Source of the DNA: Candidatus Woesearchaeota archaeon
Lineage (GTDB): Archaea; Nanobdellota; Nanobdellia; Woesearchaeales; ARS49
NCBI GenBank assembly: GCA_014729505.1
Contig: WJJS01000018.1
Location: 1-45,314, forward strand
DNA: 45,314 nucleotides
Direction of reading: 5' to 3'
Part shown: positions 1,837 through 34,392 of the stretch, piece by piece
Layout of the letters: every line of letters starts with the position of its first letter
Numbering within the stretch: the first letter of the stretch is position 1
Position numbers and translations under genes: made by a program
The notes under the pieces: generated by a model
The model's input: the letters and a program-made list of their open reading frames with translations, nothing else
Told to the model about the DNA's origin: nothing
The model's database searches: none

Positions 1837-1844
1837 TACCCATA

Positions 1845-8530: not shown

Positions 8531-8538
8531 TATATAAA
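8531..8538. promoter_or_regulatory. TATA box between the envelope cluster and pelota
   Basis: TATATAAA is centred 27 nt before the pelota ATG at 8561 and 25 nt before the divergent ATG at 8509, so it could act in both directions. Confidence 0.55.
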
Positions 8539-8560
8539 TGTTTTTCTGATAAGAAGAGTT

Positions 8561-9601: not shown

Positions 9602-9647
9602 ATCATCATCCTGTTGCTTATAGTTCATAAATTTCTCTACAACAATA

Positions 9648-9656
9648 CTTATATAG
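9648..9656 (+). promoter_or_regulatory. TATA box of the trmB-like gene
   Basis: CTTATATAG lies about 140 bp before the ATG at 9793. Transcription would begin near 9678-9682 and give a leader of about 110 nt, unlike the leaderless pattern elsewhere in the window. Confidence 0.5.
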
Positions 9657-9692
9657 ATCAAGCACTTCCCAGTATTCACTAAAGAGTAGGTG

Positions 9693-9780
9693 CCTTTTTG
9701 TTATGAGTCGAGAATCAAAAAAGTAAATCGTAACATATTAATAGCAGTAACGATTTACCTCAGACTAATAACAAAAAAGG
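9693..9780 (+). promoter_or_regulatory. Nested double inverted repeat in the leader of the TrmB-family gene
   Basis: Two nested inverted repeats fill the leader. The outer arms are 9693-9709 and 9763-9780: four pairs, one mismatch, ten pairs, a one-base bulge and two G-C pairs. The inner arms are GTAAATCGT (9723-9731) and ACGATTTAC (9750-9758), nine perfect pairs around an 18-nt loop. The outer 3' arm runs directly into the Shine-Dalgarno sequence GGGGAGGAA (9780-9788), so an RNA hairpin could limit access to it. As DNA, the inner dyad could instead be an operator for the regulator itself. The pairing is seen in the sequence; the role is inference. Confidence 0.6.
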
Positions 9781-9792
9781 GGGAGGAATTAC

Positions 9793-10593: not shown

Positions 10594-10610
10594 TTTTTTC
10601 CTTTTTCTTC
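10592..10610 (+). terminator. T-rich terminator after the trmB-like gene
   Basis: Two T runs (six and five T) directly follow the stop codon, the usual form of archaeal factor-independent termination. The next promoter box begins at 10619. Confidence 0.5.
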
Positions 10611-10618
10611 ACCACAAT

Positions 10619-10628
10619 CCTTTTATAG
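10619..10628 (+). promoter_or_regulatory. TATA box of pheST
   Basis: CCTTTTATAG is centred 26 nt before the pheS ATG at 10650. Confidence 0.55.
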
Positions 10629-10649
10629 ATTACGAAGGCACGATCACAC

Positions 10650-18318: not shown

Positions 18319-18885
18319 TTACGACGAGCGATAAGCAGATTGACAATAATTCTTCACTTCTTCATGTGCAATAAGTTCACAATGTGATTGCTCGCTGTTT
18401 AAAACACTAATAACAACATCAGCACAATCCTGTTGAGCCTGACGACTGGAAAAATACTCAGAATCCAATGACACGATAGCTTTGCATTGCTCGCGATCAG
18501 CAAGATCAAGGAAAGAAATGGCATCACACAGGGAAGGATCATTACTGGCAAATGCACGACAGACAGCATCATCGCCATCACATTGCTCTGGATTTTTATC
18601 GATCATTGCAAGACAAAACCTTTCACCCTGACAACCACCCTTATTACCAGTCACAAGAGCTTCGCACATACTGCGCGGCGTTACTGAAGCACAATCAGCA
18701 GGATCCCTACTTACCAGTGCATCAACAAGAGCGCCCAGATTATCAAGATCGTCAACGCACTCACGATACTGCACCTCAAAAGCAGGAGGAACAACTACAG
18801 CAGGCTGTGAAGTCAACATCCACAGACCTATCGCTGCAGCGAGAATCACTATTACTCCAATTGCAATCGGTAACCATTTCTTCAT
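18319..18885 (-). CDS. Membrane-anchored 12-cysteine exported protein
   Basis: A 188-residue protein with one N-terminal TM (MKKWLPIAIGVIVILAAA, about residues 4-24) and an exported domain with twelve Cys spaced at 5-20 residue intervals. Repeating pieces have the form 'xDPADCASV', 'KNPEQCDGDDAVCRAFASND', DPSLCDAI and 'SEQSHCELIA'. This suggests a helical solenoid pinned by disulphides. I placed the start at 18885 because the TATA box at 18924-18934 is too close for the ATG at 18915. It is divergent from the surface operon starting at 19009, so the two may belong together. No function was recognised. Confidence 0.8.
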   Translation of the reverse strand: MKKWLPIAIGVIVILAAAIGLWMLTSQPAVVVPPAFEVQYRECVDDLDNLGALVDALVSRDPADCASVTPRSMCEALVTGNKGGCQGERFCLAMIDKNPEQCDGDDAVCRAFASNDPSLCDAISFLDLADREQCKAIVSLDSEYFSSRQAQQDCADVVISVLNSEQSHCELIAHEEVKNYCQSAYRSS

Positions 18886-18923
18886 ACCAACACCACTTTT
18901 CAACAATCCCTGCATTGGTCTAC

Positions 18924-18934
18924 GTATAAAATAC
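18924..18934 (-). promoter_or_regulatory. TATA box of the 12-Cys protein gene
   Basis: GTATAAAATAC on the plus strand lies 40-50 nt before the ATG at 18885, giving a short leader of roughly 15-20 nt. Confidence 0.45.
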
Positions 18935-18977
18935 TTACGGTATCGCGGAAATCCATCACCAGCCACTCACGAAAACA

Positions 18978-18987
18978 TTTATATAAT
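18978..18987 (+). promoter_or_regulatory. TATA box of the surface-protein operon
   Basis: TTTATATAAT is preceded by GAAAAC (a BRE-like purine stretch) and centred 27 nt before the ATG at 19009. It is the only clear promoter I see for the next 12.5 kb. Confidence 0.6.
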
Positions 18988-19008: not shown

Positions 19009-20877
19009 ATGAAAAAGAGGTTGGTGCTGAGCGTAGTTCTTGTTCTTTGCGCTAGCCTTGCACTTGGAGATATTTTCGATTGGGGCCTGTATTTGCAGGG
19101 CGGCTCGTTTGATGTTACAGGAAGCTTTGGATTCTATCAAAGCGGCACAAAAACACTGCCCTATGTGGCACCGGATAATCAGACACATATCCGCAGTTTT
19201 ACCTATGCAGGACATAAGCGCAATGGGTGCAGCGGAGATATGAGCGCAGCAGTCAATCCAAACCTTATCTCGCACAGTAGCGGACTTGACGGCTCCTACT
19301 CTGAAGACCTGGGATACTCAGTATTTGAGGACCTGCTCATCAGACTCCACGGGTCAGATGATAAAGCCAGCGGATTTAGCAATTTCTTTAAAGGAAAATC
19401 CTGCCATTATACGATGAGTTATACCTACTTGTTAGCACACGAAGAATACGCAGAACAAAGTTTTGTTAACAGACGAAAACAAGCACGATTACTCGGCAGA
19501 GTCAGCAGTTTTCTCGATCCACGATTCACACTTGGAACAGGACAAGAACTCAAAGTCTTCTCACATAACCCGCGCGTATGGATGTTTGTCGGCGATTCAC
19601 AAAGCGAAGAAAACAAAACGACAACAACAGATCCGCGAGACAACGTGTACGCTTGTCAAGACCTAGACCAAAACCAACAATGCGATTACAACCAATTAGA
19701 AGTACAAGACTGTGAAGCAGGAGGAGGCGACTGGCTAGCCGGGCGCTGCTGCGGCGGAGACGAAAGCGACACTGACGCGTGCGAACTCTATCAAGCAGAT
19801 GATTTTGTCACACTAGTGCGTGATCCTTCAGGACTCAGCATACAACAAAACATCACACTACGAGCCCCAGCATACTGCGGCGAAAACCAAAACGGAGATC
19901 CAGAATGGACGTACCTCGAAGACATCGGAGGCATACACCACCTTGTCAACTGTCCACAATTCGATCTCAGCATAGTCAGCGACGGCACAGATTATTATTA
20001 CTGCGGGCCCTCACCAGACAGTGCAGATGAACGAGCATTATCACCACAATCATTTGATTACCTCGCAATACATGCGGGACCACATACACACACCTACACC
20101 TGTCAGAACGGACAGATCTACGAATGTCCTGGAGACGACATTGCGATGGCCATTCCGTATACAAGCGGAGGCATACTCCAAGCAAACGACGGGCGTACAC
20201 GAGCACTCGGACAAATAACAGAAACGCCTGACAATGATCAATACTGCCGTGACGACGGAACATTCGGTCTTGACCTCGACAAGTATCCAAAAGCCTGCAT
20301 GGATGCACCAGACCTCTCAGGAACAGGCACAGAAAAATGGACCGGACACTACTGTTGCTCTGAAGACCTCGATCCTGCAGATACGAACGAATCATACAAC
20401 GATCCTTACGATGACACCGCATTCCTTAATATTACTGAATCATCAAGTGGAGGTTGTTGGCAGGGACAATATACAGAAACCTCGCAAGATCTCGTGCCAA
20501 AACATATTGTGAACGCGCAGGGAGTCTATTATCAATGCGGCGTGACAGACCAAAACATGCTTTCCGTTCAGGACCTTCACACCAACATCGACGTACTCCA
20601 GGACCCAGGCGTGTGCGGTAAACTCATCCTCAGCTCTAACACCTCAGCAATACAGCGACCAGAAGGATCACACGCGGTATGCCAACCGTGGGGAGAATTC
20701 ACCTTTACCGACGATCCAACACCTACCGTTCTCAAGAGCGCACAGTGGAATGTGACCGTCACCAATCAAACACATCAAGAAGGATGCTGTCCAGCAAATC
20801 AATGCTGGAACGGACAGGAATGCCAAGCAAAGAACACGCACATGCGCGTGGGAGATAAAGGATACCTATGTCAATGA
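19009..20877 (+). CDS. Large Cys-rich exported protein, surface operon gene 1
   Basis: A 622-residue protein with a cleavable signal peptide (MKKRLVLSVVLVLCASLALG). The N-terminal domain (about 22-190) opens WGLYLQGGSFDVTG and carries IRSFTYAGHKRNGCSGDMS. It is followed by 'RVWMFVGDSQSEENK' and VYACQDLDQNQQCDYNQ. The rest is a chain of small Cys-rich modules with paired cysteines: GRCCGGDESDTDAC, HYCCSEDLDPAD and 'EGCCPANQCWNGQECQAK'. The protein stops just after the last module. It is a paralogue of the next gene. Dense disulphides suggest an extracellular place; no enzymatic motif was seen. Its stop overlaps the next start by 10 bp. Confidence 0.8.
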   Translation: MKKRLVLSVVLVLCASLALGDIFDWGLYLQGGSFDVTGSFGFYQSGTKTLPYVAPDNQTHIRSFTYAGHKRNGCSGDMSAAVNPNLISHSSGLDGSYSEDLGYSVFEDLLIRLHGSDDKASGFSNFFKGKSCHYTMSYTYLLAHEEYAEQSFVNRRKQARLLGRVSSFLDPRFTLGTGQELKVFSHNPRVWMFVGDSQSEENKTTTTDPRDNVYACQDLDQNQQCDYNQLEVQDCEAGGGDWLAGRCCGGDESDTDACELYQADDFVTLVRDPSGLSIQQNITLRAPAYCGENQNGDPEWTYLEDIGGIHHLVNCPQFDLSIVSDGTDYYYCGPSPDSADERALSPQSFDYLAIHAGPHTHTYTCQNGQIYECPGDDIAMAIPYTSGGILQANDGRTRALGQITETPDNDQYCRDDGTFGLDLDKYPKACMDAPDLSGTGTEKWTGHYCCSEDLDPADTNESYNDPYDDTAFLNITESSSGGCWQGQYTETSQDLVPKHIVNAQGVYYQCGVTDQNMLSVQDLHTNIDVLQDPGVCGKLILSSNTSAIQRPEGSHAVCQPWGEFTFTDDPTPTVLKSAQWNVTVTNQTHQEGCCPANQCWNGQECQAKNTHMRVGDKGYLCQ

Positions 20878-22742
20878 ATCCCCGCATGCAGTATACGATT
20901 CTGCTTCTTCTTCTCATCAGCAGTCTTGGCACTGCCAGTGCGCTCACATTTACCTGGGACACGCATATCGTTGGAGGAAGTCTGAGCAAAGCAGGACAAT
21001 TACGATTTACAGGACAACAAATAGATGGTGATACACAGCGCGCACCACTCTCCGCAGTCATCAGATCAATGAGTTACATCGGACAAGTCAACAATCCACA
21101 GTGTCAAGGACAAATAAGTATGGAAATCACAGGACCAAATGCATCACGATTCCCAAATCTTCGACGAACAGCATGGCTGCCAGATAGTTTCTCAGCAACA
21201 TATCCCAATCATCTCATCGATGAAGTACAATTCGAACTAACAGGACTAACAGACAATGTCTCAAATGTTTCCTGCCTCTATCAAGTTGACTGGTCATACA
21301 CGATGGCCCTGCCACAATTCGTACGATCACATACGGTGACAGGACAACCAACGGACTTAGGATCACTGCAGCAACACGTGAGCACCACGTCACTTGGCAG
21401 CGGGCAAACATACGAAGTAGTATCCCGTGATCCTTCAGCGATGCTATGGGTGGGCACTGCAAGCGACACCAACAGAAAATTCAGCACAAGCACAGCAGAT
21501 CACGTCTGGGCATGCGAAGATCTGGATCGCAACAAACAATGCGATGGCGGCACACAACCGAGCATTCCAGCGAATTATACCTTTGGCACACGACTCAATT
21601 ACACCATACAATACGGACATATCAACCGCACACTCAGACCGCTCGACTTTATGCTTATACCGTCCGCATCTGTCGGAACACCAGCACAATGGGTGCAGGC
21701 CATACTCAAGTTTACCGTCGACAGCATTGTCGCACATGCCGGCTTCTGCCTGACAGACACTGCCTGTCTTGTTACCACCGCAGGCAATCGCAGTTTTGAC
21801 GGACAAGTCCAGCGATTCTTCAGTGCAACTCAAGACAGCGCAAAACCACAGTGCCTCAACGACGGACAATACGCCCTTGATCATCTCTGTCAAGACGGAG
21901 AATGGACAAGCAGATCACTACACGTGTTCCTGCAACTCCTCGATCTTGCACAACAAAACAGTCCAAGTAATTTCAGCATTGTGTGCGGCGATGCAGCACA
22001 AGTATTAAACGATCTCACGTACAGCGCACAAGGAGTGCTCGCTTCACAACGGATAGGACGCTCGTGCAGACCACCAGGCGCGACCAGAGATTACGAATGC
22101 GTCAACAACGTCTGTGTTGCAGAACACGAACAAGGCGTAGCGTTTGGAACAAGCCTCAACACACCAGTCGACGACACCAACAGTTTCCTTCTCGCACTCA
22201 ATGTCTCCAACACGTTTTGTGATAACGTGGGACAAGTCGATTACTTCGCAGAGTGCACTCCAGGACAACTAGCAAAAGATCATATTTACTACAACCCTTC
22301 AATTAACGCGGTAATATACAGCCAAGACACACTGCAACAAATAGTCCCATCACAATTATTCAGCCAACATGTACAACCGCTCTATGACGAGATTAACGAT
22401 TACGTACAACAGGCATCAGCACCAGGACTTGACAAAACATACTTCACAAGACCGCAAGCATTCAGCCAGATCGGATGGATCAAACAAGGAACAAAACAAA
22501 TCTTTGGATTTACTGCAAAACGCAAAACAGCAGGACGACTCGATTATACAGGATTATCATACACGAACATAGATCTGGGAACAAACCCCTGCACTGACAT
22601 GTTCAAACTCTTTGACAGCACTGCAGTATGCGAGCAACAACCAACACCCACCACCTTTTTTGTCGTCGGCCAAAACGCGCCACAAGACAACAGAAGCCTG
22701 TCAGCAGTATGGCTAGATATGATGGCAAAAATACGACCATGA
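20868..22742 (+). CDS. Large exported protein, paralogue of gene 1, surface operon gene 2
   Basis: A 624-residue protein with a signal peptide (about residues 7-25, ILLLLLISSLGTASA). The N-terminal domain matches the preceding gene: TWDTHIVGGSLSKAG, 'IRSMSYIGQVNNPQCQGQIS', PSAMLWVGTASDTN, 'VWACEDLDRNKQCDGGTQ'. The second half differs, with CLTDTACLVTTAGN, 'CLNDGQYALDHLCQDGEWTS' and CVNNVCVAEHEQGVAFGTSL, and a C-terminal region without Cys pairs. In my recollection of uncharacterised DPANN exported proteins, the CCP..QCWNG module (end of gene 1) and the DG.WTSR module (here) occur in one chain; that needs a search. It abuts gene 3 after 3 bp. Confidence 0.8.
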   Translation: MSMNPRMQYTILLLLLISSLGTASALTFTWDTHIVGGSLSKAGQLRFTGQQIDGDTQRAPLSAVIRSMSYIGQVNNPQCQGQISMEITGPNASRFPNLRRTAWLPDSFSATYPNHLIDEVQFELTGLTDNVSNVSCLYQVDWSYTMALPQFVRSHTVTGQPTDLGSLQQHVSTTSLGSGQTYEVVSRDPSAMLWVGTASDTNRKFSTSTADHVWACEDLDRNKQCDGGTQPSIPANYTFGTRLNYTIQYGHINRTLRPLDFMLIPSASVGTPAQWVQAILKFTVDSIVAHAGFCLTDTACLVTTAGNRSFDGQVQRFFSATQDSAKPQCLNDGQYALDHLCQDGEWTSRSLHVFLQLLDLAQQNSPSNFSIVCGDAAQVLNDLTYSAQGVLASQRIGRSCRPPGATRDYECVNNVCVAEHEQGVAFGTSLNTPVDDTNSFLLALNVSNTFCDNVGQVDYFAECTPGQLAKDHIYYNPSINAVIYSQDTLQQIVPSQLFSQHVQPLYDEINDYVQQASAPGLDKTYFTRPQAFSQIGWIKQGTKQIFGFTAKRKTAGRLDYTGLSYTNIDLGTNPCTDMFKLFDSTAVCEQQPTPTTFFVVGQNAPQDNRSLSAVWLDMMAKIRP

Positions 22743-22745
22743 ACT

Positions 22746-24080
22746 ATGCAACACAACAAAGCCCAAGCAACCATCTTCATCTTCCTAGGCATACTGCTCC
22801 TCTTTACCATCGTTGTACTCGTCTTTGTCTATACAGGCGACGAGAACGAGATCGCACCCATACAAACACTCACACAAGCTGAAATGGAACCCATCATAAG
22901 TCATATCGAAACATGTCTGAGACTTGAAACAGATAATGCGCTGCAATTATTGGGAGAACAGGGATTCGCACTGTACGCAGACCAAGGAGGAACACTACCA
23001 TCCCTGGATGCAAACAAAGAATACGAAGAGTTCCTCTACTACGACGAAAAACCAGTACGATACCTTATCAGTCTCAAACCTGAAAACATCGTCCACGAAA
23101 ACCCGGATGGAACAGGAGATATTATCATCAGCAACAGTCTGACAGCCACACAACGATTGACAGACACAACAGTACTAGCATATCCCTGGACCACCTTTCC
23201 TATCAACCCCGCAACAGGACAAGAACAACTCTACCTTTCAAGCGGTTTTGGATGGAATCATCTTCCACCATTACAACCAGTACGAGCACACAGCATCAAA
23301 GAACAAATGGAAGGATTTATCGCAGCAAACCTTCTTACATGCATAGGAACCTGGGACCAGTTCCCCTCATTTACGATCACCACAAACGATCCAACAATCA
23401 CCGTACTCTTTGGACAATCAGCAACCACGGTCAATTTGAACTGGATCGTGAAAATGACGCACGAATCAGGACGGGAAGGAACATTTACCGTCTATCAAAC
23501 AAGAAGACCGGTACGACTTGCCACCATCCACCACTTCATCAACACGTTACTAAGCAATGATGTCAGTCAAGCAGGATTCGACATATACCAAAACGATTCA
23601 GATTTCCACATGTATATCGAACGAAACTACAGCGGAGGAGGCAGCGTTATACGACTCGTGGATCCCAAATCACGCATTGGCTCACTGCCCTACGAAGTTC
23701 GCTTTGCACGACAAAACAGACCCCCAGCACTCTATTACGTCGATCAGGAACGACTCAACACACCAACCGCACAATATGTTATCGGCAGTTGTGAAGATGC
23801 CCGTATACGATTCACCGGCACGTCATTACGAGTGACAGAAGGAGACAATCCCTGTCCACTCAACATCACCATACCATTTCAAGCTATCGATCCAGATGAA
23901 GAACAAGTCACCTTCACCATTACTGGACGGACAGGAGTACCATACGCAGTGACAGCAGCAGACATTGCACAACCACTGCCCTGCATCCCCTACACGGTGC
24001 ACGCGAGCGACGGACACGACGAAGACTGGCAGACCTTTAACATACGATTAAAATCAGTTCAATTCGGAAGATGCGCCTAA
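22746..24080 (+). CDS. Pilin-like N-terminus with exported domain and cadherin-like end, surface operon gene 3
   Basis: A 444-residue protein. The N-terminus MQHNKAQATIFIFLGILLLF has a short basic head, a K-A-Q stretch like an archaeal class III (prepilin) cleavage site, and one hydrophobic helix (about 9-29). The exported body begins with a long helix ('EMEPIISHIETCLRLETDNA'). The C-terminal 115 residues look like a cadherin- or BIG-type beta domain: 'VTEGDNPCPLNITIPFQAID', PDEEQVTFTITGRTG and YTVHASDGHDEDWQ. Cleavage by a prepilin peptidase or simple anchoring are both possible. Its end overlaps gene 4 by 10 bp. Confidence 0.78.
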   Translation: MQHNKAQATIFIFLGILLLFTIVVLVFVYTGDENEIAPIQTLTQAEMEPIISHIETCLRLETDNALQLLGEQGFALYADQGGTLPSLDANKEYEEFLYYDEKPVRYLISLKPENIVHENPDGTGDIIISNSLTATQRLTDTTVLAYPWTTFPINPATGQEQLYLSSGFGWNHLPPLQPVRAHSIKEQMEGFIAANLLTCIGTWDQFPSFTITTNDPTITVLFGQSATTVNLNWIVKMTHESGREGTFTVYQTRRPVRLATIHHFINTLLSNDVSQAGFDIYQNDSDFHMYIERNYSGGGSVIRLVDPKSRIGSLPYEVRFARQNRPPALYYVDQERLNTPTAQYVIGSCEDARIRFTGTSLRVTEGDNPCPLNITIPFQAIDPDEEQVTFTITGRTGVPYAVTAADIAQPLPCIPYTVHASDGHDEDWQTFNIRLKSVQFGRCA

Positions 24081-27000
24081 TACGATTATGCGGACTAAGT
24101 ATTCTGGCCCTCGCACTAGTGTTAGCAGTATCAACTACAACTGTTTCTGCACAATCAACAAGAGGTTGCTGTTGTGACGGGCCATCAGCACAGGCCAGTT
24201 CATCATTTCCCGATAACAGTTTTTGTAATCAAGGATACTATTTTGAACCACTCACGCCACAAGATCAACTCAACCCATCCTTTACCTGTGACGCTAAATG
24301 TGCAGCTGTAGCAAACACACTACCAAATGCCACCTGCGGCGATTCAATATGTGAATCTTCAAAAGGAGAAACAAATGCGAACTGTCCATTTGACTGTTCC
24401 GCCTCACTACCATCCGTGGGCTGCGCTCCAGGCTTTGCACCACCGCCAAGCAATGTCACTCTCGCACCCGTCAAAGGAGAACAGGCTTTTCGCATGGATT
24501 TCACATTGCAATGTCCGACAGACTCAGTGGTTATCTCAAGATGTAAAGGAGCAGGATGCACAAACTTTCAGACTATCGCAACCATACCGCCGACAAACTA
24601 TTATGTCGACAGAGATAACACCCTGGAATTTGATACCAACTACACTTACGAGCTGCGTGCCACGTATCTCGTACAAAACACTACAAGCGTTCCAACAACA
24701 CGAACAAGCAATCTGGGCGACCTCGAATGTCTTGGACAAACAAGTCTCGTACCATTCTGCATAAATGAATTTTACTATACTAAGTATCAACAATACCTTG
24801 AACAATACGGTTATTCAACAGCAGTAAGCCTTGCAACATGGACAAACGCGTTTCCAACAGCAGTACAACAAACATTTAGCAGCCGTTTTGGACAAACATG
24901 GCAGTGCAATAATTTCAACACACTCTTTCAAGCAGCAAACGCAGTGCAATGCCAGCAAGGAGAAGTCTGTGTCAGCGACAATCAAGGATCTCGCTGTGTG
25001 ACACCAAGCGCTTGTCAACTCGGCGACAATCCCTTTGGCCTGTACTATACTGTCGATACCTGTGAAGGCAGTACAAGCCCGAGATACTGTTTTTATGACA
25101 GAAGCCAGGCAAATGTCGACGAATGTTACGATTGTGCACCAAGCATGAACTGTTATGACTACAAAACACAAGGAGCATGCGAGCGCAACAATTGCGGAGT
25201 GGGACAATGCCAGTGGAACGACGTCATCCCCGAACTCGGTATCGGCGTATGCATTGACACCCGCTTTAATAACTGTCCCAACTGCGTGAGCGAAGGAAGC
25301 AGCAACGCGCCAAACGAAGATAGTTTTAATGCACTCTTTGAACAATGCAGCGATGCAAAAGCAGCAGCATTGTCTACACCACAATACCCCTGCTTTTTTA
25401 ACAAAAACACACGACAAGGAACAAGTTGCGATGCCATAAGCTGTGCAGACTACTCACCAAGCCAATGTAACGCGCCAAGTGGAGGCGTCACACTGAATCT
25501 GGACAATTCCCTCAAAACAACAAGTACTGATCCGTGCAACATACGAGTATGTGAATTCACCACCAGTACAGGATGTGTAAAAAATGCAGACGGCAGTGAT
25601 ACAAGCCAGCCGGGATGGCAAGACTGTGTTGCAGGAGATTTTGATTGTGAACGAGACTTCTTGCCGCCAGAGACAACCATAGTACCGACGGGAGCTTCAG
25701 GACGCTACGACAATCTGGCAATAAGAATTCAAGACAAACTCACAAAAGGAGGACTGGCAGTCAGCAAAACCGGAGCGCCAGGATACACCACACATCTGTG
25801 CGTTGTTACAGCCAGCAATCCCTGCACGGACGCAGACCGATTTACCATTAATGTTAATAGCAGTTCACTGCTGATCAAAAACTTAAAACTCAAAGACGGA
25901 CAACGAGAACTCGCACCATTAGCGTTTGGACCAAATACCATACGCTACTACAGTACCGACGCTGCAAAGAATCCCGAAATCATCAAAGAGATAGACATTG
26001 TCGCGTGCGATAATTGTTCTGGACCAACAGTACTCAGCATCGACATCAGCAATGGACAAGAAGTCGACGGAGCATATTACACGCAAGACAGCCAACCAAC
26101 AATTACCATTGTCTTTGACGAGCCAACAACAATACGGTTTGCAGGACTCTCAAGTGGAGGACAGAACATACCACTCAACTCACAAAACCCTGCAGGATCA
26201 TTTAGTCATACGCTTTTACCCGCACAACCATTTACCGGCACATACATCTTTGGACTTGACGCGGTAAACGCGCAAAATGTAGGCATCGATCCATCACTGG
26301 TGTTTAACCTCACCTACGATCCTACCACGCCAATAGTTACCATATCACCGCCCGATGGTATGACAACAAGTCAGGACCGCGTCACGATTACACTGCAATT
26401 CAACGAAGAAGTCCTTTTACAGAACGTCAGCGTCAATGATAACGTACCAGTCACACCCTTCCAGGACAAACTCGTACCTACAGACATCACACAAAGTCTT
26501 AGCACACAAAACAACAAGGACTTCACTTACCAAGTAAGCAATCTAAGACCTGGAAAGAAAACAATCATAGTCGACGCCACCGATTATGCCGGAAACACAG
26601 TACGAAAGACCAGCAGTTTCTTTGTGCAAACCGGAGCAACAACAATACGCATGACCGAGCCAAGCTTTGGCGTGTTTAGCGTCTTCCAATTTCCCGTCGT
26701 CATAGAAACATTCAACAATGCAGAATGCCGATACGTCTGGGACACACCAACAGCTCCAAGTGACAGCGGATTCAACTTTTTTGACAAATTCGACGTGACA
26801 GCAGGACTCACACACCAGATACGGAATTTCAACAAAATAAGTGTGGGAGATACGAGCGTACACCGGTTGCACGTCTACTGCAAAGATCAATACGGCATCT
26901 CACAGGAAACATTTGACATGCGCGCAGATCTCATACAACCACAGATCACCAACGCAAGAGCACATCCAAACCCCATAGCAGAATCCGACGATCCTGTAAA

Positions 27001-29044
27001 AGATATCTTTACAACAAGACTCTACGTCGATGTCAACGAATTGAGCTTCTGCAAGTACAGCGATAGCACACAAAACTTCGATCAGATGCAAGGATATTTT
27101 ACCGGCTTTGGACTCGTACCAAAACAATCACATACCGAAGAACTCACACTCACACAAGACAAAGCATACACATATTTTGTGAAATGCCAAGATCTTGGAG
27201 GAACAGAAACAGCAACATCAACAATCAACTTTGACGTCGACCTTAACGCACCAATGAGCGTGCGCAGCACCACCTCGCCAACAAGCAATTCCACACAATT
27301 CCTCCTCAGAGTTGAAACAAACAAACGAGCCTTTTGCTACTTTGGAGAACAAAACGATAGCATCAACACCTGCTTTGGCACCTGCAATCTTGGAAGAAAC
27401 CATTTGCACCCTCAAACAGCAAATATCAGCGCAGGTACAAAAACATACTATGTAACATGTAATAATCCCATTACAAACGAGCGTACGACAGTCATCAATA
27501 TCAGCGTCTTTATCGACACCACCGCGCCGGTCATGGCCTACACGAATTCCACCAGCGCGTACGAGCCGGATCCTACCAGATCATTTTTCACCGACCGTAT
27601 GCGCGTCGCATTCAAGGGAGAAGATCTGGAAAGCAATGTCACTGCATACGACTACAAAATACGAACACAATTCGATCCGGAATTCATAGCACGCGACTGG
27701 ACACGCACCACAAGACTCGACGGCAAAGCACATTACATCACCGGACTAAACCTCACAGAAGGCGTGCCGTATGTCATACAAGTCATCCCTATTAACGGCG
27801 TAGGACTGCAGGGCACCATGCAACAAAGCGACGGCGTCATACCAGACCTCACTATTTATCCAGGAGTCTGTTCAGACACCATTCTTTCAGGAAACGAAAC
27901 AGATATTGACTGCGGCGGAGAATGCGGGCCCACATGCACGGTTGGCGATTCATGTCAAGGCAATGATGATTGCGTACTTAATATTTGTACCAACAATACC
28001 TGTGCAGCACCGACATGCACAGACGGTATCTTCAGCACAGAAAATAACGAAACAGATATTGACTGCGGAGGAGCTAATTGTGCAGCTTGTGCAGAAGGAC
28101 AATCATGTCTCGCGCACAGTGATTGCACAACAAACTTCTGCAAGAACGGAGCATGCGTCATCCCAGGACCTTGTGAAGATGGTGTGAGAGGAGGTAGTGA
28201 AACAGACATTGACTGCGGCGGCAGTTGCGGTCCTTGCGCAGAAAACCAACAATGCCTAAGCAATGATGACTGTCAGAACAAACTCTTATGCACACTCGAA
28301 GGATTATGCAAACTGGAAAAGGATGAAGACAATGACGGCGTCCATGATGACGACGATCAATGTCCCGGCACCACTCACCGCTATGTCGACAAAACAGGAC
28401 CAAATGCAGGATGTGAAAGCAAAAGCTGTGGAGACAGAATACCGGACTGGTGGCGTGCATCAAAACTCGGAAGCACGAGTTGCACAGGAAACGGTGACAG
28501 AGATGCAGATCCTGATGAGGACGGTCTGACAAACATCGAAGAATATGATGCAAATACCGATCCTCAAAATCCAGATACTGACGGCGATGGATGGCTTGAC
28601 GGTGAAGACGGAGAAAAAGGAGCCGATGCCAACAATCCAGAAGCACACCCCATTTCCAGATTATTGATCGCCTTTGCAGCGCTGCTTATCATCGCTATCC
28701 TGGGAGCCATAGGCATGGGAGGCTATTACGGTTATAACAAATATCAGGAGCATAAAAGGAAACTCGAAGAACAAAAACGAATTCTCGAAGAGAAAAAACG
28801 CAAAGAACAAGCCAAACGAGCTCAAGAAGCGAAAATCAAAGCAGAACAGGAAGCAAAAAGAAGAGAACAACAAGCCAAACTACAACGACTCAAAGAGCTA
28901 AGCAAAAAAGAAAAAATAACAAAAAAAGATTACGTCGAACTCAGCAGCCTAGAAAAAGATATTAAGAAAAAAGAGACCACAAAGAAAAGCGATGATGAAA
29001 TACTCAAGCGACTACAAGCTCTCAAGAAGAAATACAAAAAATGA
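24071..29044 (+). CDS. Giant surface protein with cytoplasmic coiled-coil tail, surface operon gene 4
   Basis: A 1657-residue protein, the largest in the window. The signal peptide is about residues 1-27 (LALVLAVSTTTVSAQ). A Cys-rich head follows (about 30-530; CCCDG, 'CGDSICESSKGETNANCPFDC', and many Cys pairs around 280-420). Next come several Ig/fibronectin-like beta domains (about 540-1260; TPIVTISPPDGMTTSQDRV and others) and three ETDIDCGG Cys repeats (E at 1276, 1327, 1377). Asp-rich calcium-binding-like stretches follow ('DEDNDGVHDDDDQCPG' from 1418; PDTDGDGWLDGEDGEKG near 1500). There is one TM (about 1530-1552) and a highly charged cytoplasmic coiled coil (about 1557-1657, ending LKKKYKK). 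The fold order is that of an outward stalk tied to an inner scaffold. Start and stop both overlap neighbours. Confidence 0.85.
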   Translation: MRLIRLCGLSILALALVLAVSTTTVSAQSTRGCCCDGPSAQASSSFPDNSFCNQGYYFEPLTPQDQLNPSFTCDAKCAAVANTLPNATCGDSICESSKGETNANCPFDCSASLPSVGCAPGFAPPPSNVTLAPVKGEQAFRMDFTLQCPTDSVVISRCKGAGCTNFQTIATIPPTNYYVDRDNTLEFDTNYTYELRATYLVQNTTSVPTTRTSNLGDLECLGQTSLVPFCINEFYYTKYQQYLEQYGYSTAVSLATWTNAFPTAVQQTFSSRFGQTWQCNNFNTLFQAANAVQCQQGEVCVSDNQGSRCVTPSACQLGDNPFGLYYTVDTCEGSTSPRYCFYDRSQANVDECYDCAPSMNCYDYKTQGACERNNCGVGQCQWNDVIPELGIGVCIDTRFNNCPNCVSEGSSNAPNEDSFNALFEQCSDAKAAALSTPQYPCFFNKNTRQGTSCDAISCADYSPSQCNAPSGGVTLNLDNSLKTTSTDPCNIRVCEFTTSTGCVKNADGSDTSQPGWQDCVAGDFDCERDFLPPETTIVPTGASGRYDNLAIRIQDKLTKGGLAVSKTGAPGYTTHLCVVTASNPCTDADRFTINVNSSSLLIKNLKLKDGQRELAPLAFGPNTIRYYSTDAAKNPEIIKEIDIVACDNCSGPTVLSIDISNGQEVDGAYYTQDSQPTITIVFDEPTTIRFAGLSSGGQNIPLNSQNPAGSFSHTLLPAQPFTGTYIFGLDAVNAQNVGIDPSLVFNLTYDPTTPIVTISPPDGMTTSQDRVTITLQFNEEVLLQNVSVNDNVPVTPFQDKLVPTDITQSLSTQNNKDFTYQVSNLRPGKKTIIVDATDYAGNTVRKTSSFFVQTGATTIRMTEPSFGVFSVFQFPVVIETFNNAECRYVWDTPTAPSDSGFNFFDKFDVTAGLTHQIRNFNKISVGDTSVHRLHVYCKDQYGISQETFDMRADLIQPQITNARAHPNPIAESDDPVKDIFTTRLYVDVNELSFCKYSDSTQNFDQMQGYFTGFGLVPKQSHTEELTLTQDKAYTYFVKCQDLGGTETATSTINFDVDLNAPMSVRSTTSPTSNSTQFLLRVETNKRAFCYFGEQNDSINTCFGTCNLGRNHLHPQTANISAGTKTYYVTCNNPITNERTTVINISVFIDTTAPVMAYTNSTSAYEPDPTRSFFTDRMRVAFKGEDLESNVTAYDYKIRTQFDPEFIARDWTRTTRLDGKAHYITGLNLTEGVPYVIQVIPINGVGLQGTMQQSDGVIPDLTIYPGVCSDTILSGNETDIDCGGECGPTCTVGDSCQGNDDCVLNICTNNTCAAPTCTDGIFSTENNETDIDCGGANCAACAEGQSCLAHSDCTTNFCKNGACVIPGPCEDGVRGGSETDIDCGGSCGPCAENQQCLSNDDCQNKLLCTLEGLCKLEKDEDNDGVHDDDDQCPGTTHRYVDKTGPNAGCESKSCGDRIPDWWRASKLGSTSCTGNGDRDADPDEDGLTNIEEYDANTDPQNPDTDGDGWLDGEDGEKGADANNPEAHPISRLLIAFAALLIIAILGAIGMGGYYGYNKYQEHKRKLEEQKRILEEKKRKEQAKRAQEAKIKAEQEAKRREQQAKLQRLKELSKKEKITKKDYVELSSLEKDIKKKETTKKSDDEILKRLQALKKKYKK
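27890..28310 (+). repeat. Three tandem ETDIDCGG cysteine-rich units inside the giant surface protein
   Basis: Units of about 50 residues start near 27890, 28040 and 28190. Each has the pattern ETDIDCGG, then C..C, C...DC, C..G.C. The first two share the 20-base stretch GAAACAGATATTGACTGCGG exactly (27896 and 28049). The third has diverged by silent changes, showing purifying selection on the protein repeat. Similar units occur in extracellular proteins of archaea and bacteria. Confidence 0.8.
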
Positions 29045-29514
29045 GAAACGCACAAGCAGTACAAACAATCTTTATCTATATCGTTTCAGCAGCGATTTTC
29101 CTAACCATACTGCTCTTTGGATATCAAGCAATTAACAGTTTATTATCAAGTACTGAAGATATCGTTCTGGCAGAACTGGAACAATCAATTACAAAAGAAG
29201 TTGAAAGAATACGTATTGTGAACAAACGCAGCGTACCTGTCACATTTCGCATCCCTGAAGGATATGATGAATTCTGCATCGTTGACAGTACCGGCTATAC
29301 AAGCGGAAGCTTACAAGCGGACAAACCACAACTGTATCGCGCATGGAAAACAGGCACAGAAAACGTTTTTTTTACACCCAAACAACCAGTAGCCATGCGC
29401 ATCGAACATGTTGAGATACCCACCGGATATTTCTGCATCAATGCAGAAAACCCCATCGAATTACGTATTGAAGGAACGGGAAGAACGGCAAAGATTTCGC
29501 CGGAGGTCGCATGA
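29041..29514 (+). CDS. Small pilin-like protein, surface operon gene 5
   Basis: A 157-residue protein with a short head and one hydrophobic helix at the N-terminus (MRNAQAVQTIFIYIVSAAIF, then LTILLFGYQAINSL), followed by a compact exported domain of about 120 residues. N-A-Q near the start resembles a prepilin cleavage context. The exported part is a small beta domain (VPVTFRIPEGYDEFCIVDST, 'IPTGYFCINAENPIELRI') with two Cys. The ATG overlaps the stop of the giant gene (ATGA) and its own stop overlaps the next start the same way, so expression is coupled. Confidence 0.78.
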   Translation: MRNAQAVQTIFIYIVSAAIFLTILLFGYQAINSLLSSTEDIVLAELEQSITKEVERIRIVNKRSVPVTFRIPEGYDEFCIVDSTGYTSGSLQADKPQLYRAWKTGTENVFFTPKQPVAMRIEHVEIPTGYFCINAENPIELRIEGTGRTAKISPEVA

Positions 29515-30536
29515 AACAAGGCGTGCAATCCGTCTTTACATGGATTTTTATTCTCCTCGCCGGCGGACTCATACTCGTATTTTTTATCACCGTAGGCTAT
29601 CGCTTCTACGACGGCAGTATTCAAACAGCAAGCATACAGGTAGAACAAAACCTGGAATCAGCACTCAGTCTTGCACTGCAACAAGACCGCTACTCACACT
29701 CAATACTACTTGGGCGCTCAAGCGTCACGTTTTTTTGTTCAAACACCTGCGACTGCACCTTCGATACCGGGTACAAAGGAACAAATTTTAGAGACAACAT
29801 CTTTTTTGCAGAACCACTCATCGACGGCACACTTTATCTCTGGTCACTGCCATGGCTTGTGCCATTTCGCGCAACAAACTTTCTCACCGTAAGCTCGCCA
29901 GAATATACTCACTACATCGTCACAGGAAATGCAGCACGAGGACTGCAAGAAGAACTCGAGGAGAAAAGTCCAAAAAACAGCACGATACGGTTTATCACAC
30001 CAAGTGAAGTCAGCACCATAGAAAACGGGGCCACACAAGAAAAATTCATCTTTCTCAAAAGCGGTATACGCGCACTTCATCCCTCCTTTGCAGATGAAGA
30101 AGTACGAGCAGTAGAATTGCAGGGCAATACCATACAATTCCTCATAAAAAGTGAAGACAGTCCAGGGTTTGAACAACAAGGACAACGCATACCAATACTC
30201 AATGACAACCTCGCCATGATCTCTGCGGCAATGTTTAGCGGACATCCAGACATGTTCACCTGCGGACTGCAAACAGGATATAAAAAACTCAACCTCGTTG
30301 CACAAGTACTGGCCAACAAAGCAAAAAGCATGGACGGCTTTACCAAACCCAATGGTGACAATTGCTACTACGATCCATCAGCAGTCAGTTTACTCAACAG
30401 CATAAGCCAACATGCCAACACGCTATCGACAAATCCCCGAGACAGTCAGAGCGTTTCATCACTCGACCAACTCTACACCCAACTGGAACAATTGAACAAT
30501 GAAAGAGAAATCGAAAGCTGCCCACTCATCTACTAA
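29511..30536 (+). CDS. Pilin-like N-terminus with larger exported domain, surface operon gene 6
   Basis: A 341-residue protein opening MKQGVQSVFTWIFILLAGGL, with a hydrophobic helix at about 9-31. Gly-4 followed by V-Q resembles a prepilin cleavage site. The exported domain has four Cys in two pairs (FFCSNTCDCTF is one cluster) and an alpha/beta pattern; 'STIRFITPSEVSTIENGATQ' and VRAVELQGNTIQFLIK are typical stretches. A helix rich in Gln/Asn/Glu ends the chain ('QLYTQLEQLNNEREIESCP'). The family is unknown to me. The ATGA overlap with gene 5 and the 38-bp overlap with gene 7 keep it in the operon. Confidence 0.78.
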   Translation: MKQGVQSVFTWIFILLAGGLILVFFITVGYRFYDGSIQTASIQVEQNLESALSLALQQDRYSHSILLGRSSVTFFCSNTCDCTFDTGYKGTNFRDNIFFAEPLIDGTLYLWSLPWLVPFRATNFLTVSSPEYTHYIVTGNAARGLQEELEEKSPKNSTIRFITPSEVSTIENGATQEKFIFLKSGIRALHPSFADEEVRAVELQGNTIQFLIKSEDSPGFEQQGQRIPILNDNLAMISAAMFSGHPDMFTCGLQTGYKKLNLVAQVLANKAKSMDGFTKPNGDNCYYDPSAVSLLNSISQHANTLSTNPRDSQSVSSLDQLYTQLEQLNNEREIESCPLIY

Positions 30537-31008
30537 AGGCGCAATCAAGATGTTTGAAACACTTGGTGTGCTCTTTGTTTTTATTATACTCCTCGGCATA
30601 AGCCTGGCACTCTACAGTTTTGTACAACAAGGAAACGTAGAAGATGCACTCTCACAACAAGCAGCCAAAAAAGCAACAGTTCTTGCCACAAAAGCAACAA
30701 ACGTTCCAGAACTCGACTGCAGTCGCATCGGATTTACACGCACCAAATGTGTAGACCTGCTCAAGCTACAATCAATCAATTACGTACTCAACTCCAGCAG
30801 AGCAGCACGAGAATACTATTTTGACGTCTTTCAAACAGCACGGATTGTCATCTACCAATTATGGCCTCAAAGCAATATGAGCGTTACACTCTATGACAAC
30901 CTTGACACGAGAGCAACAGACGTCCTCTACGAGCCACTACTGCTTTACAATCCATTAACAGAAACAAACACATTTGGCATGATGGAAATTAGGGTACCAA
31001 CCACATGA
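30499..31008 (+). CDS. Small pilin-like protein, surface operon gene 7
   Basis: A 169-residue protein. The head is long and polar (MKEKSKAAHSSTKGAIK) before MFETLGVLFVFIILLGISL, a hydrophobic helix at about 20-42. K-G-A-I-K-M-F-E resembles a prepilin site with a Glu near +5. The exported domain of about 120 residues has a Cys pair (LDCSRIGFTRTKCVDLL) and a 'VIYQLWPQSNMSVTLYD' strand pair. An internal ATG at 30550 would start at MFETLG and remove the overlap with gene 6; I prefer 30499 because the K-G motif lies upstream of it, but this is open. It overlaps gene 8 as ATGA. Confidence 0.72.
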   Translation: MKEKSKAAHSSTKGAIKMFETLGVLFVFIILLGISLALYSFVQQGNVEDALSQQAAKKATVLATKATNVPELDCSRIGFTRTKCVDLLKLQSINYVLNSSRAAREYYFDVFQTARIVIYQLWPQSNMSVTLYDNLDTRATDVLYEPLLLYNPLTETNTFGMMEIRVPTT

Positions 31009-31529
31009 AAAAAGGACAAATAGAAATCATGGGACTGCTCCTAATAATATTACTCATAGGAGTATTCATTCTCTTCAGCATTTTATACACAGGTTCTGAC
31101 GACGATCCTACACAAGTCAGTCGGGAAACAGTCCTTGCACGAAGTACTATTTTGAACCTGTTGCAAACCCACACAGACTGCTCACCACAAGCAACCATAC
31201 CACCAACAGTGCAAGAACTCCTCGAAGACTGTGCAACAGGAGCCACCATGAACTGCCCTGGAGGAAACTCTTGTCAACGAGCACACCACATTATTGATCG
31301 CACATTGAAAACAACGTTTCGCGACGTAGATCAACAAGTAGAGGGAGTAATAGCCCGAGATTATTCCTTTCACATCGCGAACATCGGCTACTTCGACAAT
31401 CTCGGAGGAGCTACGAGCGGACTTGATGCATGCCCTCGAGGATCGCGTCAAGAAGGAGCCGTACAAACCCTGCCCATCTCTGCAAGTTACAAAATGGAAC
31501 TAACATTACTACTTTGCATTTCTCGATAA
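31005..31529 (+). CDS. Small pilin-like protein, surface operon gene 8
   Basis: A 174-residue protein with the clearest class III signal of the set: MKKGQIEIMGLLLIILLIGV, where K-G-Q precedes the hydrophobic helix (about 8-28). The exported domain carries two Cys in a CPGGNSC loop and others at DC...CATG (about 60-90), then 'RDVDQQVEGVIARDYSFHIA'. It is the last gene of the operon; the next gene has its own TATA box. KGQ-type starts of this sort are common among short uncharacterised DPANN proteins in my recollection, and they are usually processed by an archaeal prepilin peptidase when that enzyme is present. Confidence 0.78.
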   Translation: MKKGQIEIMGLLLIILLIGVFILFSILYTGSDDDPTQVSRETVLARSTILNLLQTHTDCSPQATIPPTVQELLEDCATGATMNCPGGNSCQRAHHIIDRTLKTTFRDVDQQVEGVIARDYSFHIANIGYFDNLGGATSGLDACPRGSRQEGAVQTLPISASYKMELTLLLCISR

Positions 31530-31559: not shown

Positions 31560-33512
31560 ATGGGGGGGCGAGTACGAAGGGCACTACAACGCATAGTACC
31601 ATACAACACCGCAATATCATGGAGCAGCGCCTTACTTACCGGCATCATCGCAGCACCCTATTTTGACTGGGATGCGCTGTTTAACGCGTCATCACTGGAT
31701 GCCGGAAGTGTACTGCGCGCTTTTGCACCGATACTAGCACCATGCGCTGCATGGGCACTACCGCGAACAACACTGTCACTGGCAGACCTCATCCTGGACA
31801 ATACTAAAGAAACAAGCGAAACAACACCCCATAGTGAACTACCCTCACTACCTACAGTACCAACACATAAAAACTATCCATTACGAACAGGACTTCTCAC
31901 AGGAGCAGGATATGCAGGATACGTAATGCTTCAGGGTACAGATCTTTCCCATGCACTGCCACCAGCAATACTGTACGCAACACTGTCCAGCTCACTGATC
32001 GGCTGCATACGCGACAGATCGCTTAGCACAATACACCTAAGTATTGCAGCAGGCGGACTAAGCTACCATGCCATCTCATCTGTTACGGATCCGCCCGCAA
32101 ATATGCTTGCCGCACTCATGGCACCTTGTGTGAGCATGTACGCAGGTCTCGGAATAGCACTATGTCGGCAACGACTAAGCAAAGAAGAAAAACAACAACT
32201 GGCTAAATTCTATGTAAACCCTTCAGAAGACAAAGAAGAACATCTTCGCGTTCTTGGATCAAGCGCCGCATGGATATACTCCATAGGAGATCTGACACAT
32301 CAACGCTACGAAAACCTTTTTACCACGTATACGAATTATCTGGAAGAACGACCAGAACATCCGGCATTTTTCTCATTTGTCCTTGGAGGCGTCACCCTTT
32401 TCTATCGGGCAATGACGTGGTTTTCACAAATACTACAACCACAACAAGCCATGCACGAAGTAGCACAGGCAGCACTCGCAGCGTATCAACGTCACGACAA
32501 TGAAGTCCCCATACGATTAGAACGAGCACGATTACTAGCACAAGCCACACAACATCCACAACTCCATGAAATCCGAGTGCTTGAAAGCATCGTCACAGGA
32601 AACTGGTCCGAGTCCCTCACCCCATTACTTGAAGAATTACCTCTTGAACCACTAGGCGCAAGCGATCACCAAGTCTACCGCGTCAGTTCAACAAAAGGCT
32701 ATCTTAGCAGCATGTTTGCCATCAAAACATCCACGCACCACGACGAACTGGAACAGGAAAAAACAACAAGTGAAAGATTTAACACAACCCATGAAGAACA
32801 CAAAGTCGTAACAAGTCTCTATCTGGGACGGCTTGCAGATTCTGAGAGAACAGCATACGTCACCCGTTTTGCAGCAGGACACACTCTAGATCAAAGTACT
32901 AACTTTGCTGATTACATACGCGTTGCGCGTTATCTCGGCGAGATACACCAAATTCTTGAAAGTAAAAGAGATGATAGAGATTACCGGGCTGTACTTGAAG
33001 AACGATTGCAGACTCACCCACTAGGAAAAGAGCTGATCAATGAATGGGACATTCTCTGGCAACATGTCAACGACAAAAAAGTGTTCGACAAGGATCCACA
33101 CGGAAAAAACTGGATACTCACTCCGGATGGTTCGATCGTCGCCCTGGACTGGCACGACAAGGGACGTACAAATCAATGCATTCAACTCGCAAAACTCACA
33201 GAACACAGCAGCATCTTTGGAAATAACATCGATCTTCGCGCACGAGTATACCGAACGTATCAAGAAGAATTTCCCGTCACAGACCTAGACACTCTTCTAC
33301 AAGGAACAATTGCATGTGCTTCGCCCGTTGCAGCAAACAGCCTTTACTTCCATGAACAAGGACGAGCAGACACTCAACTCACAAAAAACTATCTCAACAA
33401 TGCAACCAACGTACTGCGCAGTGCTCGCGAACAATTACACTGGACAGATCCTGCCTATCGCCGTATAGAAGACATCATGCATGCGCTTGCAGAAACTTTC
33501 GACCCGTCGTAG
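31560..33512 (+). CDS. Polytopic membrane protein fused to an APH-like kinase domain
   Basis: A 650-residue fusion. The first 200 residues hold about six hydrophobic segments (near 20-37, 49-66, 105-124, 132-150, 155-170, 180-200), with another near 270-290. A helical region resembling TPR-like repeats lies around 215-350. The last 290 residues have the order of an aminoglycoside-phosphotransferase/choline-kinase fold: a VYRVSSTKGYLSSMFAIK N-lobe with Lys389, the catalytic-loop form D-P-H-G-K-N (Asp512, His514, Asn517), and the metal-binding Asp530 in VALDWHDKG. All key residues are kept, so it is probably an active small-molecule or lipid-head-group kinase at the membrane. The substrate is unknown. 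The 3' end overlaps the convergent AbrB-PhoU gene by 38 bp. Confidence 0.78.
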   Translation: MGGRVRRALQRIVPYNTAISWSSALLTGIIAAPYFDWDALFNASSLDAGSVLRAFAPILAPCAAWALPRTTLSLADLILDNTKETSETTPHSELPSLPTVPTHKNYPLRTGLLTGAGYAGYVMLQGTDLSHALPPAILYATLSSSLIGCIRDRSLSTIHLSIAAGGLSYHAISSVTDPPANMLAALMAPCVSMYAGLGIALCRQRLSKEEKQQLAKFYVNPSEDKEEHLRVLGSSAAWIYSIGDLTHQRYENLFTTYTNYLEERPEHPAFFSFVLGGVTLFYRAMTWFSQILQPQQAMHEVAQAALAAYQRHDNEVPIRLERARLLAQATQHPQLHEIRVLESIVTGNWSESLTPLLEELPLEPLGASDHQVYRVSSTKGYLSSMFAIKTSTHHDELEQEKTTSERFNTTHEEHKVVTSLYLGRLADSERTAYVTRFAAGHTLDQSTNFADYIRVARYLGEIHQILESKRDDRDYRAVLEERLQTHPLGKELINEWDILWQHVNDKKVFDKDPHGKNWILTPDGSIVALDWHDKGRTNQCIQLAKLTEHSSIFGNNIDLRARVYRTYQEEFPVTDLDTLLQGTIACASPVAANSLYFHEQGRADTQLTKNYLNNATNVLRSAREQLHWTDPAYRRIEDIMHALAETFDPS

Positions 33513-34392
33513 AACCAAAACAATCATAAATACGCTGTACAACAACAAAAAGATGTGCAAGCAGCACCCTGTCAGCAGCACTGCGTGTCTCCATTTCCTT
33601 TAATTCACTTGCAAGGCCTGCGTTTTCTTTTCGCAACGCTTCCATATTATCAACACCAGCATCATAAAAATGCGCGTAATACTTACGAAGATGTTGGCCC
33701 ACTTTTTGCAATAGCCCGACGAGTTCTGCACGAGGCAAGGACTCTGCAGTATGCAAAGACAGACAAATGTCTCGAAACTCATCACCAATACTCTCCAAGA
33801 CCGAAAGAATTGTATAAAGAAACACTGTTTGTGAACCACGGCTCTGTTTATTGAGCAAACGATGACAATAATTGGTCAAGCGATTACTGGTCTTTTCCAA
33901 AGGCAATAATGACTGGAGTTCTGATAATTGCCCTTTTGCAATCATTGACGCAACAGATTCCGCAAGCGATAGTGTCACGAGAAAAGTCCGACGAACCATA
34001 CTATCAAGTTCATGAGTAAGATCACCAGACACGTTCTTGATCACCACACGTTTAGGCGTTTGTTCAACAACTTCAAAACCAATTAATTCCTCAGTACGTT
34101 TGCAGACCAGAGCAGCAAGAACAGGATCGTCATAGAGAAATTCAATCTCGTCATAACCTACCTTGTGCAGCACGGAAACAATGCTTTTAACAAAACCTTC
34201 TGTAAGACCGGAAATATCAACAGAAATACTCTCAGGCACTTCAATAGCACCGTCAGTGGAAATCACAAGCGCATTATGCTTTTCCTCGACGCGCAACTCA
34301 TCACTTTTTTGTACACCATACTTTTTAACCCAGGTGGACGGCAAACTCACTACAAACGTTTTCTCTGCCAGCTGAATGACTTTGCGCTTCAT
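33475..34392 (-). CDS. AbrB-PhoU type phosphate-uptake regulator
   Basis: A 305-residue protein. The N-terminal SpoVT/AbrB DNA-binding barrel (residues 1-45) reads KRKVIQLAEKTFVVSLPSTW and 'VKKYGVQKSDELRVEEK'. After a linker come helices of a PhoU-like four-helix bundle, 'RRTFLVTLSLAESVASMIAK' and LHKVGYDEIEF on one side, then 'LLQKVGQHLRKYYAHFYD'. Archaeal proteins of this layout are annotated as regulators of phosphate transport. No Pst transport genes are in the window. A TATA box (34416-34423) lies 27 nt before the ATG. Confidence 0.9.
   Translation of the reverse strand: MKRKVIQLAEKTFVVSLPSTWVKKYGVQKSDELRVEEKHNALVISTDGAIEVPESISVDISGLTEGFVKSIVSVLHKVGYDEIEFLYDDPVLAALVCKRTEELIGFEVVEQTPKRVVIKNVSGDLTHELDSMVRRTFLVTLSLAESVASMIAKGQLSELQSLLPLEKTSNRLTNYCHRLLNKQSRGSQTVFLYTILSVLESIGDEFRDICLSLHTAESLPRAELVGLLQKVGQHLRKYYAHFYDAGVDNMEALRKENAGLASELKEMETRSAADRVLLAHLFVVVQRIYDCFGSTTGRKFLQAHA

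Follow-up and report, generated by a model that had tools for sequence, protein, structure and literature searches.

A conserved operon of pilin-like and cysteine-rich surface proteins in a woesearchaeal genome

The 45,314-nucleotide stretch analysed here (the window; contig WJJS01000018.1 of a Candidatus Woesearchaeota archaeon) carries eight consecutive genes, W1 to W8, which form a class-wide, mostly single-copy conserved surface operon (Table 1). As an initial annotation made from the sequence alone had proposed, all eight are open reading frames (ORFs) on the plus strand whose junctions are overlaps or a 3-bp gap, measuring -10, +3, -10, -4, -4, -38 and -4 bp from W1 to W8. The one visible promoter of that annotation corresponds to a promoter-like sequence, CGAAAACATTTATATA, before W1, with the correction that it is archaeal in type, judged by the archaeal consensus of the B recognition element (BRE) and TATA box. 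A scan for sigma-70-type promoters gave 25 sites where 20.5 were expected (standard deviation 4.0), which is no excess, and a terminator scan gave none either. Because the pattern was read off the sequence that it matches, the exact match is not evidence by itself; at up to three mismatches, 0.55 matches are expected by chance.

Table 1. Operon genes and neighbouring features of the window, with their positions
Feature	Position	Strand	Description
Promoter-like BRE/TATA, archaeal	18970..18985	+	CGAAAACATTTATATA; 23 bp 5' of the W1 ATG; read from sequence
W1	19009..20877	+	Exported Cys-rich protein, 622 aa; no Pfam family; homologues adjacent in relatives
W2	20868..22742	+	Exported, 624 aa; N-terminal part homologous to W1, separate conserved C-terminal domain
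W3	22746..24080	+	Pilin-like, 444 aa; class III motif (K-A-Q) followed by a hydrophobic helix; D-P-D-E in C-terminal domain
W4	24071..29044	+	Giant surface protein, 1657 aa; Ig-like and TSP3-like parts; C-terminal membrane segment; basic tail
W5	29041..29514	+	Pilin-like, 157 aa; predicted N-terminal helix and small beta head
W6	29511..30536	+	Pilin-like, 341 aa; predicted N-terminal helix and large alpha/beta head; operon marker
W7	30499..31008	+	Pilin-like, 169 aa; Glu 20 invariant in 33 aligned sequences
W8	31005..31529	+	Pilin-like, 174 aa; K-G-Q motif
W9	31560..33512	+	650 aa, kinase-like catalytic motifs; 30 bp downstream of W8
MazE/AbrB-like protein	33475..34392	-	305 aa; N-terminal domain below the Pfam cut-off
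Divergent Cys-rich protein	18319-18966	-	215 aa; single hydrophobic helix at the N-terminus; immediately upstream of W1
Archaeal signal recognition particle RNA	44963-45236	-	133.6 bits

The operon recurs widely among relatives of this archaeon. A search with W6 as the single query found a match in 43 of 57 genomes, this genome counted, and a W6 profile of 43 sequences matched 166 of 193 genomes of the order, with one match each in 157 of the 166; among the order genomes with a completeness of 90% or more and no more than 5% contamination, the profile matched 118 of 136. By scanning named GTDB contigs with a W4 profile, we confirmed 60 loci out of 68 matches to one peptide pattern, a procedure that may miss further relatives. 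The labels of these loci (51 Candidatus Woesearchaeota, four Nanoarchaeota, two Nanoarchaeia, one Aenigmatarchaeota, one Euryarchaeota and one 'archaeon', none bacterial) fit the DPANN assignment that had been made for the window.

Across the 60 GTDB loci the gene order W1/W2-W3-W4-W5-W6-W7-W8 is retained, with all core genes on the same strand. The neighbour pairs are mainly W3-W4 (48), W4-W5 (35), W5-W6 (35), W6-W7 (31), W7-W8 (30), W2-W3 (23) and W1-W3 (18), and the others include W4-W4 (15), W4-W6 (8), W6-W8 (5), W1-W4 (3) and single oddities such as one W3-W1. A complete W3-W8 call was obtained in 24 of the 60; many of the incomplete loci are cut by a contig or locus end or contain a missed call. 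The first 18 loci from the order show the same gene order wherever they are complete. Because these 18 overlap the GTDB set (L041 and L054, for example, both come from contigs of 81,069 bases), the 78 loci are not independent samples. All gene maps come from a simple longest-ORF caller that missed W5 or W7 in some loci, often placed starts too far upstream and read through runs of N, which seven of the 60 loci hold. Apparent W4-W5 and W4-W6 fusions (L046 11986-17493; L085 5884-13446) were not used: the join in L046 is a run of N, and L085 holds 3351 N. Gene-order conservation, which the initial annotation had named as a check, thus holds in the 60 loci and, as described below, mostly in 18 loci of other orders; the eight-gene arrangement is therefore more than chance.

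The three largest products, W1, W2 and W4, begin with hydrophobic, signal-like segments and contain 27, 16 and 83 cysteines, respectively. W1 and W2 had been described as large disulphide-rich paralogues, which is true of their approximately 200 N-terminal residues (28% identity, E 7e-15), to which the similarity is confined, but not of the approximately 350 C-terminal residues of W2, which form a separate domain. In four of the first 18 order loci (L036, L041, L047 and L052), a single gene holds W1 together with the C-terminal domain of W2. Neither W1 nor W2 has a named domain over the cut-off in Pfam or NCBIfam, and a comparison of the W2 profile with PDB profiles gave nothing useful.

W4 has hydrophobic segments at residues 1-30 and 1524-1556 and a basic C-terminal tail of 97 residues (29 K, 8 R, 15 E and 4 D). 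The second segment agrees with the transmembrane segment of the initial annotation, and the Ca-binding-like repeats that it had placed in W4 are represented by thrombospondin type 3 (TSP3)-like motifs at residues 1418 and 1502; the Pfam model TSP3_bac (bacterial thrombospondin type 3), however, has no match in the W4 of the window, although it matches 5 of 12 W4 homologues at E <= 0.01. Ig-like models match seven of the 12 at the same threshold, and the W4 profile is weakly similar to the PDB profiles of titin and 2yn3 chains. Ig-like and thrombospondin type 3 parts are common in adhesins and stalks.

W3, W5, W6, W7 and W8 each have a single hydrophobic segment, which is N-terminal, and the pilin-like starts that had been noticed in all five are kept in relatives. 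A class III (prepilin) motif, scored as K or R followed by G, A or S where the helix begins, is present in 172 of the 192 scorable homologues from the 60 GTDB loci (W3 46/49, W5 31/35, W6 41/43, W7 23/32 and W8 31/33). The same motif occurs in 20 of 81 homologues of W1, W2 and W4 (2/11, 2/13 and 16/57, respectively; some W4 entries are second halves of W4) and, among ten further proteins of this genome that have a hydrophobic N-terminus, in two. Under a looser rule all 32 W7 homologues carry the motif; in two of the W7 misses, K or R sits a few residues inside the helix. The first alignments of all five families contain invariant cysteines and are therefore compatible with an extracellular head.

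Structure prediction with AlphaFold covered two of the five pilin-like proteins. For W6 (43 sequences; predicted local distance difference test score, pLDDT, 93.5; predicted template modelling score, pTM, 0.88), the model has an unbroken N-terminal helix of 56 residues (2-57) followed by a stranded head, and for W5 (36 sequences; pLDDT 93.7, pTM 0.77) it has one of 58 residues (2-59), again followed by a stranded head. Type IV pilins are built in this manner, from a head and an extended N-terminal helix of approximately 53 residues. When the heads were compared with the PDB, neither had a clear relative (best Z 5.1, root-mean-square deviation (rmsd) 2.6 and 72 aligned residues for W6; best Z 3.2, rmsd 2.8 and 63 aligned residues for W5). 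The TssK-like and formyltransferase-like matches of W6 (Z about 5) are weak and were dismissed as common arrangements, and a DUF7262 match of W7 (E 0.037) was too weak for use.

In most of the loci fetched from outside the order, the operon is found next to a gene for a surface layer (S-layer)-type protein. A phylum-level draw of 147 genomes, all at least 90% complete, contained W6 in 119, of which 28 lie outside the order; among the 28 genomes without W6, at least 12 belong to the order and at least 8 do not. We fetched 18 of the 28 outside-order loci, mainly the stronger matches, together with two from the order (20 in total). Their usual layout is large protein-W3-large protein-W5-W6-W7-W8. 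There are exceptions: L166, L167 and L173 have no W5 call, in L168 and L175 W3 comes after W8, several loci (e.g. L159, L165, L168 and L170) contain additional ORFs between these genes, and some are truncated. In 14 of the 18 other-order loci, W8 is followed on its own strand by an S-layer-type gene, with one small frame between them in L160; in Pfam scans of four such genes, PF05124 was over the cut-off in three and below it in one. The loci without this gene are L168, L173, L175 and L164, whose contig stops approximately 400 bases further on.

This linkage is a point in favour of an S-layer-associated envelope complex, in which the pilin-like helices, as a short pseudopilus that does not extend or as a membrane anchor, would fix the giant Cys-rich proteins in a specialised S-layer patch, or build one. 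The membrane segment and basic tail of W4 point the same way, as does an S-layer C-terminal piece that this genome carries at the start of contig 5. However, none of the other 78 operon loci (18 from the order; 51 more labelled Woesearchaeota) gave a match to a profile of the S-layer-type gene, prepilin motifs presuppose both a peptidase and machinery for extraction, and short-pilin matches occur in 34 of these 78 loci; we consider such an envelope complex unlikely. S_layer_C (PF05124) is absent among the Pfam matches of W1-W8 at E <= 1. Several of the loci L159-L176 encode, 3' of the S-layer gene, one or two proteins with an N-terminal hydrophobic segment and a length of about 180-220 residues; two of them were scanned, and no Pfam family was found.

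The initial annotation reported no pilus ATPase, platform protein or prepilin peptidase, which is correct for the window but not for the genome. The only match to the T2SSE ATPase family (PF00437) in the genome lies on contig 30 (C30:16239-16721) within an 800-residue ORF. This ATPase is adjoined by a platform-like (TadC/PilC-like) protein of 730 residues, which scores 26.1 bits with PF00482 against a cut-off of 25.2 in a whole-protein scan and 19.7 bits, under the cut-off, in the genome search, and a 211-residue protein that looks like a coiled coil by eye is encoded nearby. A prepilin peptidase (PF01478, E 2.4e-13) is found on contig 7. The earlier suggestion of a platform borrowed from elsewhere in the genome fits these results. 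At a threshold of E <= 1e-36, 184 of the 193 order genomes contain an ATPase of the long contig-30 type. According to tallies read from tables by eye, 22 order genomes have a single PF00437 match, 19 of these have W6, and 18 of the 19, this genome included, carry the long ATPase (E <= 1e-36); the contig-30 type is therefore usually the motor that W6 could use when others are lacking, although it is not exclusive to W6 genomes.

Short pilin-like proteins are also encoded near the operon in relatives. By motif, we counted 43 short K-A-Q-G-L-x-I-N proteins with a long hydrophobic helix (84-137 residues, in 28 loci), and the short-pilin (A10) profile gave 71 matches in 34 of the 78 operon loci, a profile that is driven mainly by the hydrophobic start and may catch other pilin-like proteins, as weak W7 and W8 scores in L166 suggest. 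In this genome, A10-type short pilins are encoded on contig 20 (E 2.4e-11 and 2.0e-6). We take the short pilins as candidate main subunits of a filament.

In another reading, W3 and W5-W8 would make up a type II-secretion-like pseudopilus and work as a piston for the export or release of W1/W2 and further Cys-rich proteins. The combination of small minor pilins with a larger W6 resembles the minor pseudopilins GspH-K, and the operon also encodes the exported W1 and W2, which have no second membrane segment. Against this, to our knowledge these archaea are without an outer membrane, W4 has a membrane segment of its own, the nearby short-pilin genes suggest a longer filament, and the fold matches listed for W5 and W6 include no pseudopilin, nor a clear match of any other kind. 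We consider a secretion piston very improbable. The contig 20 genes belong to a second surface locus (170-11876; L158), which brings together short pilins with larger pilin-like proteins and also encodes an Lrp-type regulator and an 831-residue Cys-containing protein, all on one strand except one gene; relatives of the regulator occur in 13 of the 78 operon loci.

Overall, we favour the reading, at a probability of roughly 0.6, that W1-W8 form a complex of minor pilins and adhesins within a type IV pilus-like machine specific to the lineage, and that this complex probably serves attachment. We infer prepilin processing, assembly by the contig-30 ATPase, a filament with the complex at its tip, adhesion and a target as follows. 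W3, W5, W6, W7 and W8 would enter the membrane as prepilins and would be cleaved after K-G/A/S by the prepilin peptidase of the genome. The contig-30 platform protein and ATPase would then pull them out of the membrane, and the extracted subunits may start, cap or decorate a filament made mainly of the contig-20 short pilins, which are about 90-130 residues long. W1/W2 and W4 would accompany the pilins as large disulphide-stabilised surface proteins, W1/W2 perhaps acting as a tip-type adhesin and W4 as a membrane-anchored stalk, the cytoplasmic basic tail of which could contact the cytoplasmic machine or regulators. The complex would pass through the S-layer and might let the cell adhere to other cells or surfaces; the cell-cell attachment suggested in the initial annotation is still a conjecture.

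Several results weigh against this reading. None of W1-W8 has a Pfam match over the cut-off, and NCBIfam yielded sub-threshold matches only, so that the proteins are without curated family names, as their earlier description as undescribed had anticipated. Pfam scanning of homologues covered W4, W6 and W7, and the 19 W6 and 16 W7 homologues gave single-member matches only, none naming a pilus family; PDB profile searches with W6 and W7 returned nothing useful and named no pilus part. No solved pilin or pseudopilin is among the matches listed for the W5 and W6 heads, an absence that is not evidence of a new fold in either protein. The C-terminal membrane segment of W4 is more in keeping with a stalk bound to the cell than with the tip of a pilus. 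Among the single-ATPase genomes, one with W6 (G091) is without the long type, and two of the three without W6 (G056 and G151) carry it. Because the long ATPase is nearly universal and also occurs in these W6-less genomes, its co-occurrence with W6 is not proof of pairing, and because both are very common in the order, the test is weak in power.

Finally, no homologue of the contig-30 ATPase or platform protein was found in the 98 fetched operon loci (18 + 60 + 20). This absence is what would be expected of an ATPase-independent surface complex, as the initial annotation had entertained, in which the five helices remain in the membrane as anchors. Such a complex is not supported, since PF00437, PF00482-like and PF01478 proteins are present in the genome; most order genomes have both the ATPase and W6, and the prepilin motif is conserved. 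We therefore regard permanent anchoring as extremely unlikely: of the initial interpretation, a single operon that encodes pilin-like together with Cys-rich surface proteins and is conserved in relatives is supported, and its ATPase-independent assembly is not.

Several genes flank the operon. W9, which carries kinase-like catalytic motifs and has relatives near the operon in some loci, is a possible regulator outside the counted structure. The MazE/AbrB-like protein, with relatives in 14 of the 78 fetched loci, is another possible regulator. For the divergent Cys-rich protein upstream of W1, BLASTP found no relative (E <= 1e-3) in the first 18 order loci.

As a candidate set of surface proteins, the operon spans the class, is usually single-copy and contains pilin-like subunits; it supplies specific genes to seek in existing DPANN co-cultures. 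Cultivated DPANN archaea need contact with a host cell, and the source archaeon has a small genome and is probably host-dependent. A more far-reaching proposal is that W1-W8, the short pilins and the long CpaF-type ATPase build a class-wide host-contact apparatus, an S-layer-piercing filament with a base complex, which would be part of the Nanobdellota attachment organelle (cone, portal and tube); we consider it a long shot. The archaea in which this organelle was described presumably belong to the same phylum as the present archaeon under current naming. In their passages on the organelle, two tomography papers of 2024 (PMC11420986 and PMC11104419) describe a locally replaced S-layer and a filament or tube with a cone, and leave the proteins unidentified there. 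Another study raises the possibility that Nanoarchaeota use type IV pili to sense and bind their host (PMC6142677), and thin filaments that could be pili appear in the tomography described in part of PMC11329633.

In the open-access literature, judged by titles and the openings of abstracts and with subscription papers and preprints outside its scope, we found no description of the W1-W8 operon. The main text of PMC8204110, in which the words 'pili' and 'pilin' do not occur, lists 51 families common to Pacearchaeota and Woesearchaeota that are mostly of unknown function. The contig-30 trio of ATPase, platform and coiled-coil-looking protein looks similar to the cluster 2 DPANN CpaF-TadC-coiled-coil loci of PMC11291902, whose section on ATPase/coiled-coil loci mentions no set like W1-W8. 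In its treatment of nanoarchaeal ATPases, PMC4858521 (Makarova, Koonin and Albers 2016) distinguishes a clade without identified pilins.

Two better-known systems resemble the operon in some of their parts. In Pseudomonas (PMC5979040) and Myxococcus (PMC7541494), PilY1 and the minor pilins FimU/PilV/W/X/E are proposed as pilus primer and tip and likewise combine small minor pilins with one very large protein. The Pfam matches of W1, W2 and W4, and those of 12 W4 homologues, include no PilY1-type domain (e.g. DUF2341). The operon also differs in the C-terminal membrane segment of W4 and in having W1/W2 as extra proteins. The type IV pili of Thermoproteales clades 4G, 4B and 4E, which belong to a different lineage and are likened here by parts list only and not by sequence, have, like W1-W8, several small minor pilins and many conserved cysteines according to the passages of PMC4858521 devoted to them. 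As in the operon described here, their loci encode a large S-layer-like protein with a C-terminal membrane domain and a large signal-peptide protein that is a possible adhesin, and as in this genome, the ATPase and TadC are sometimes encoded elsewhere.

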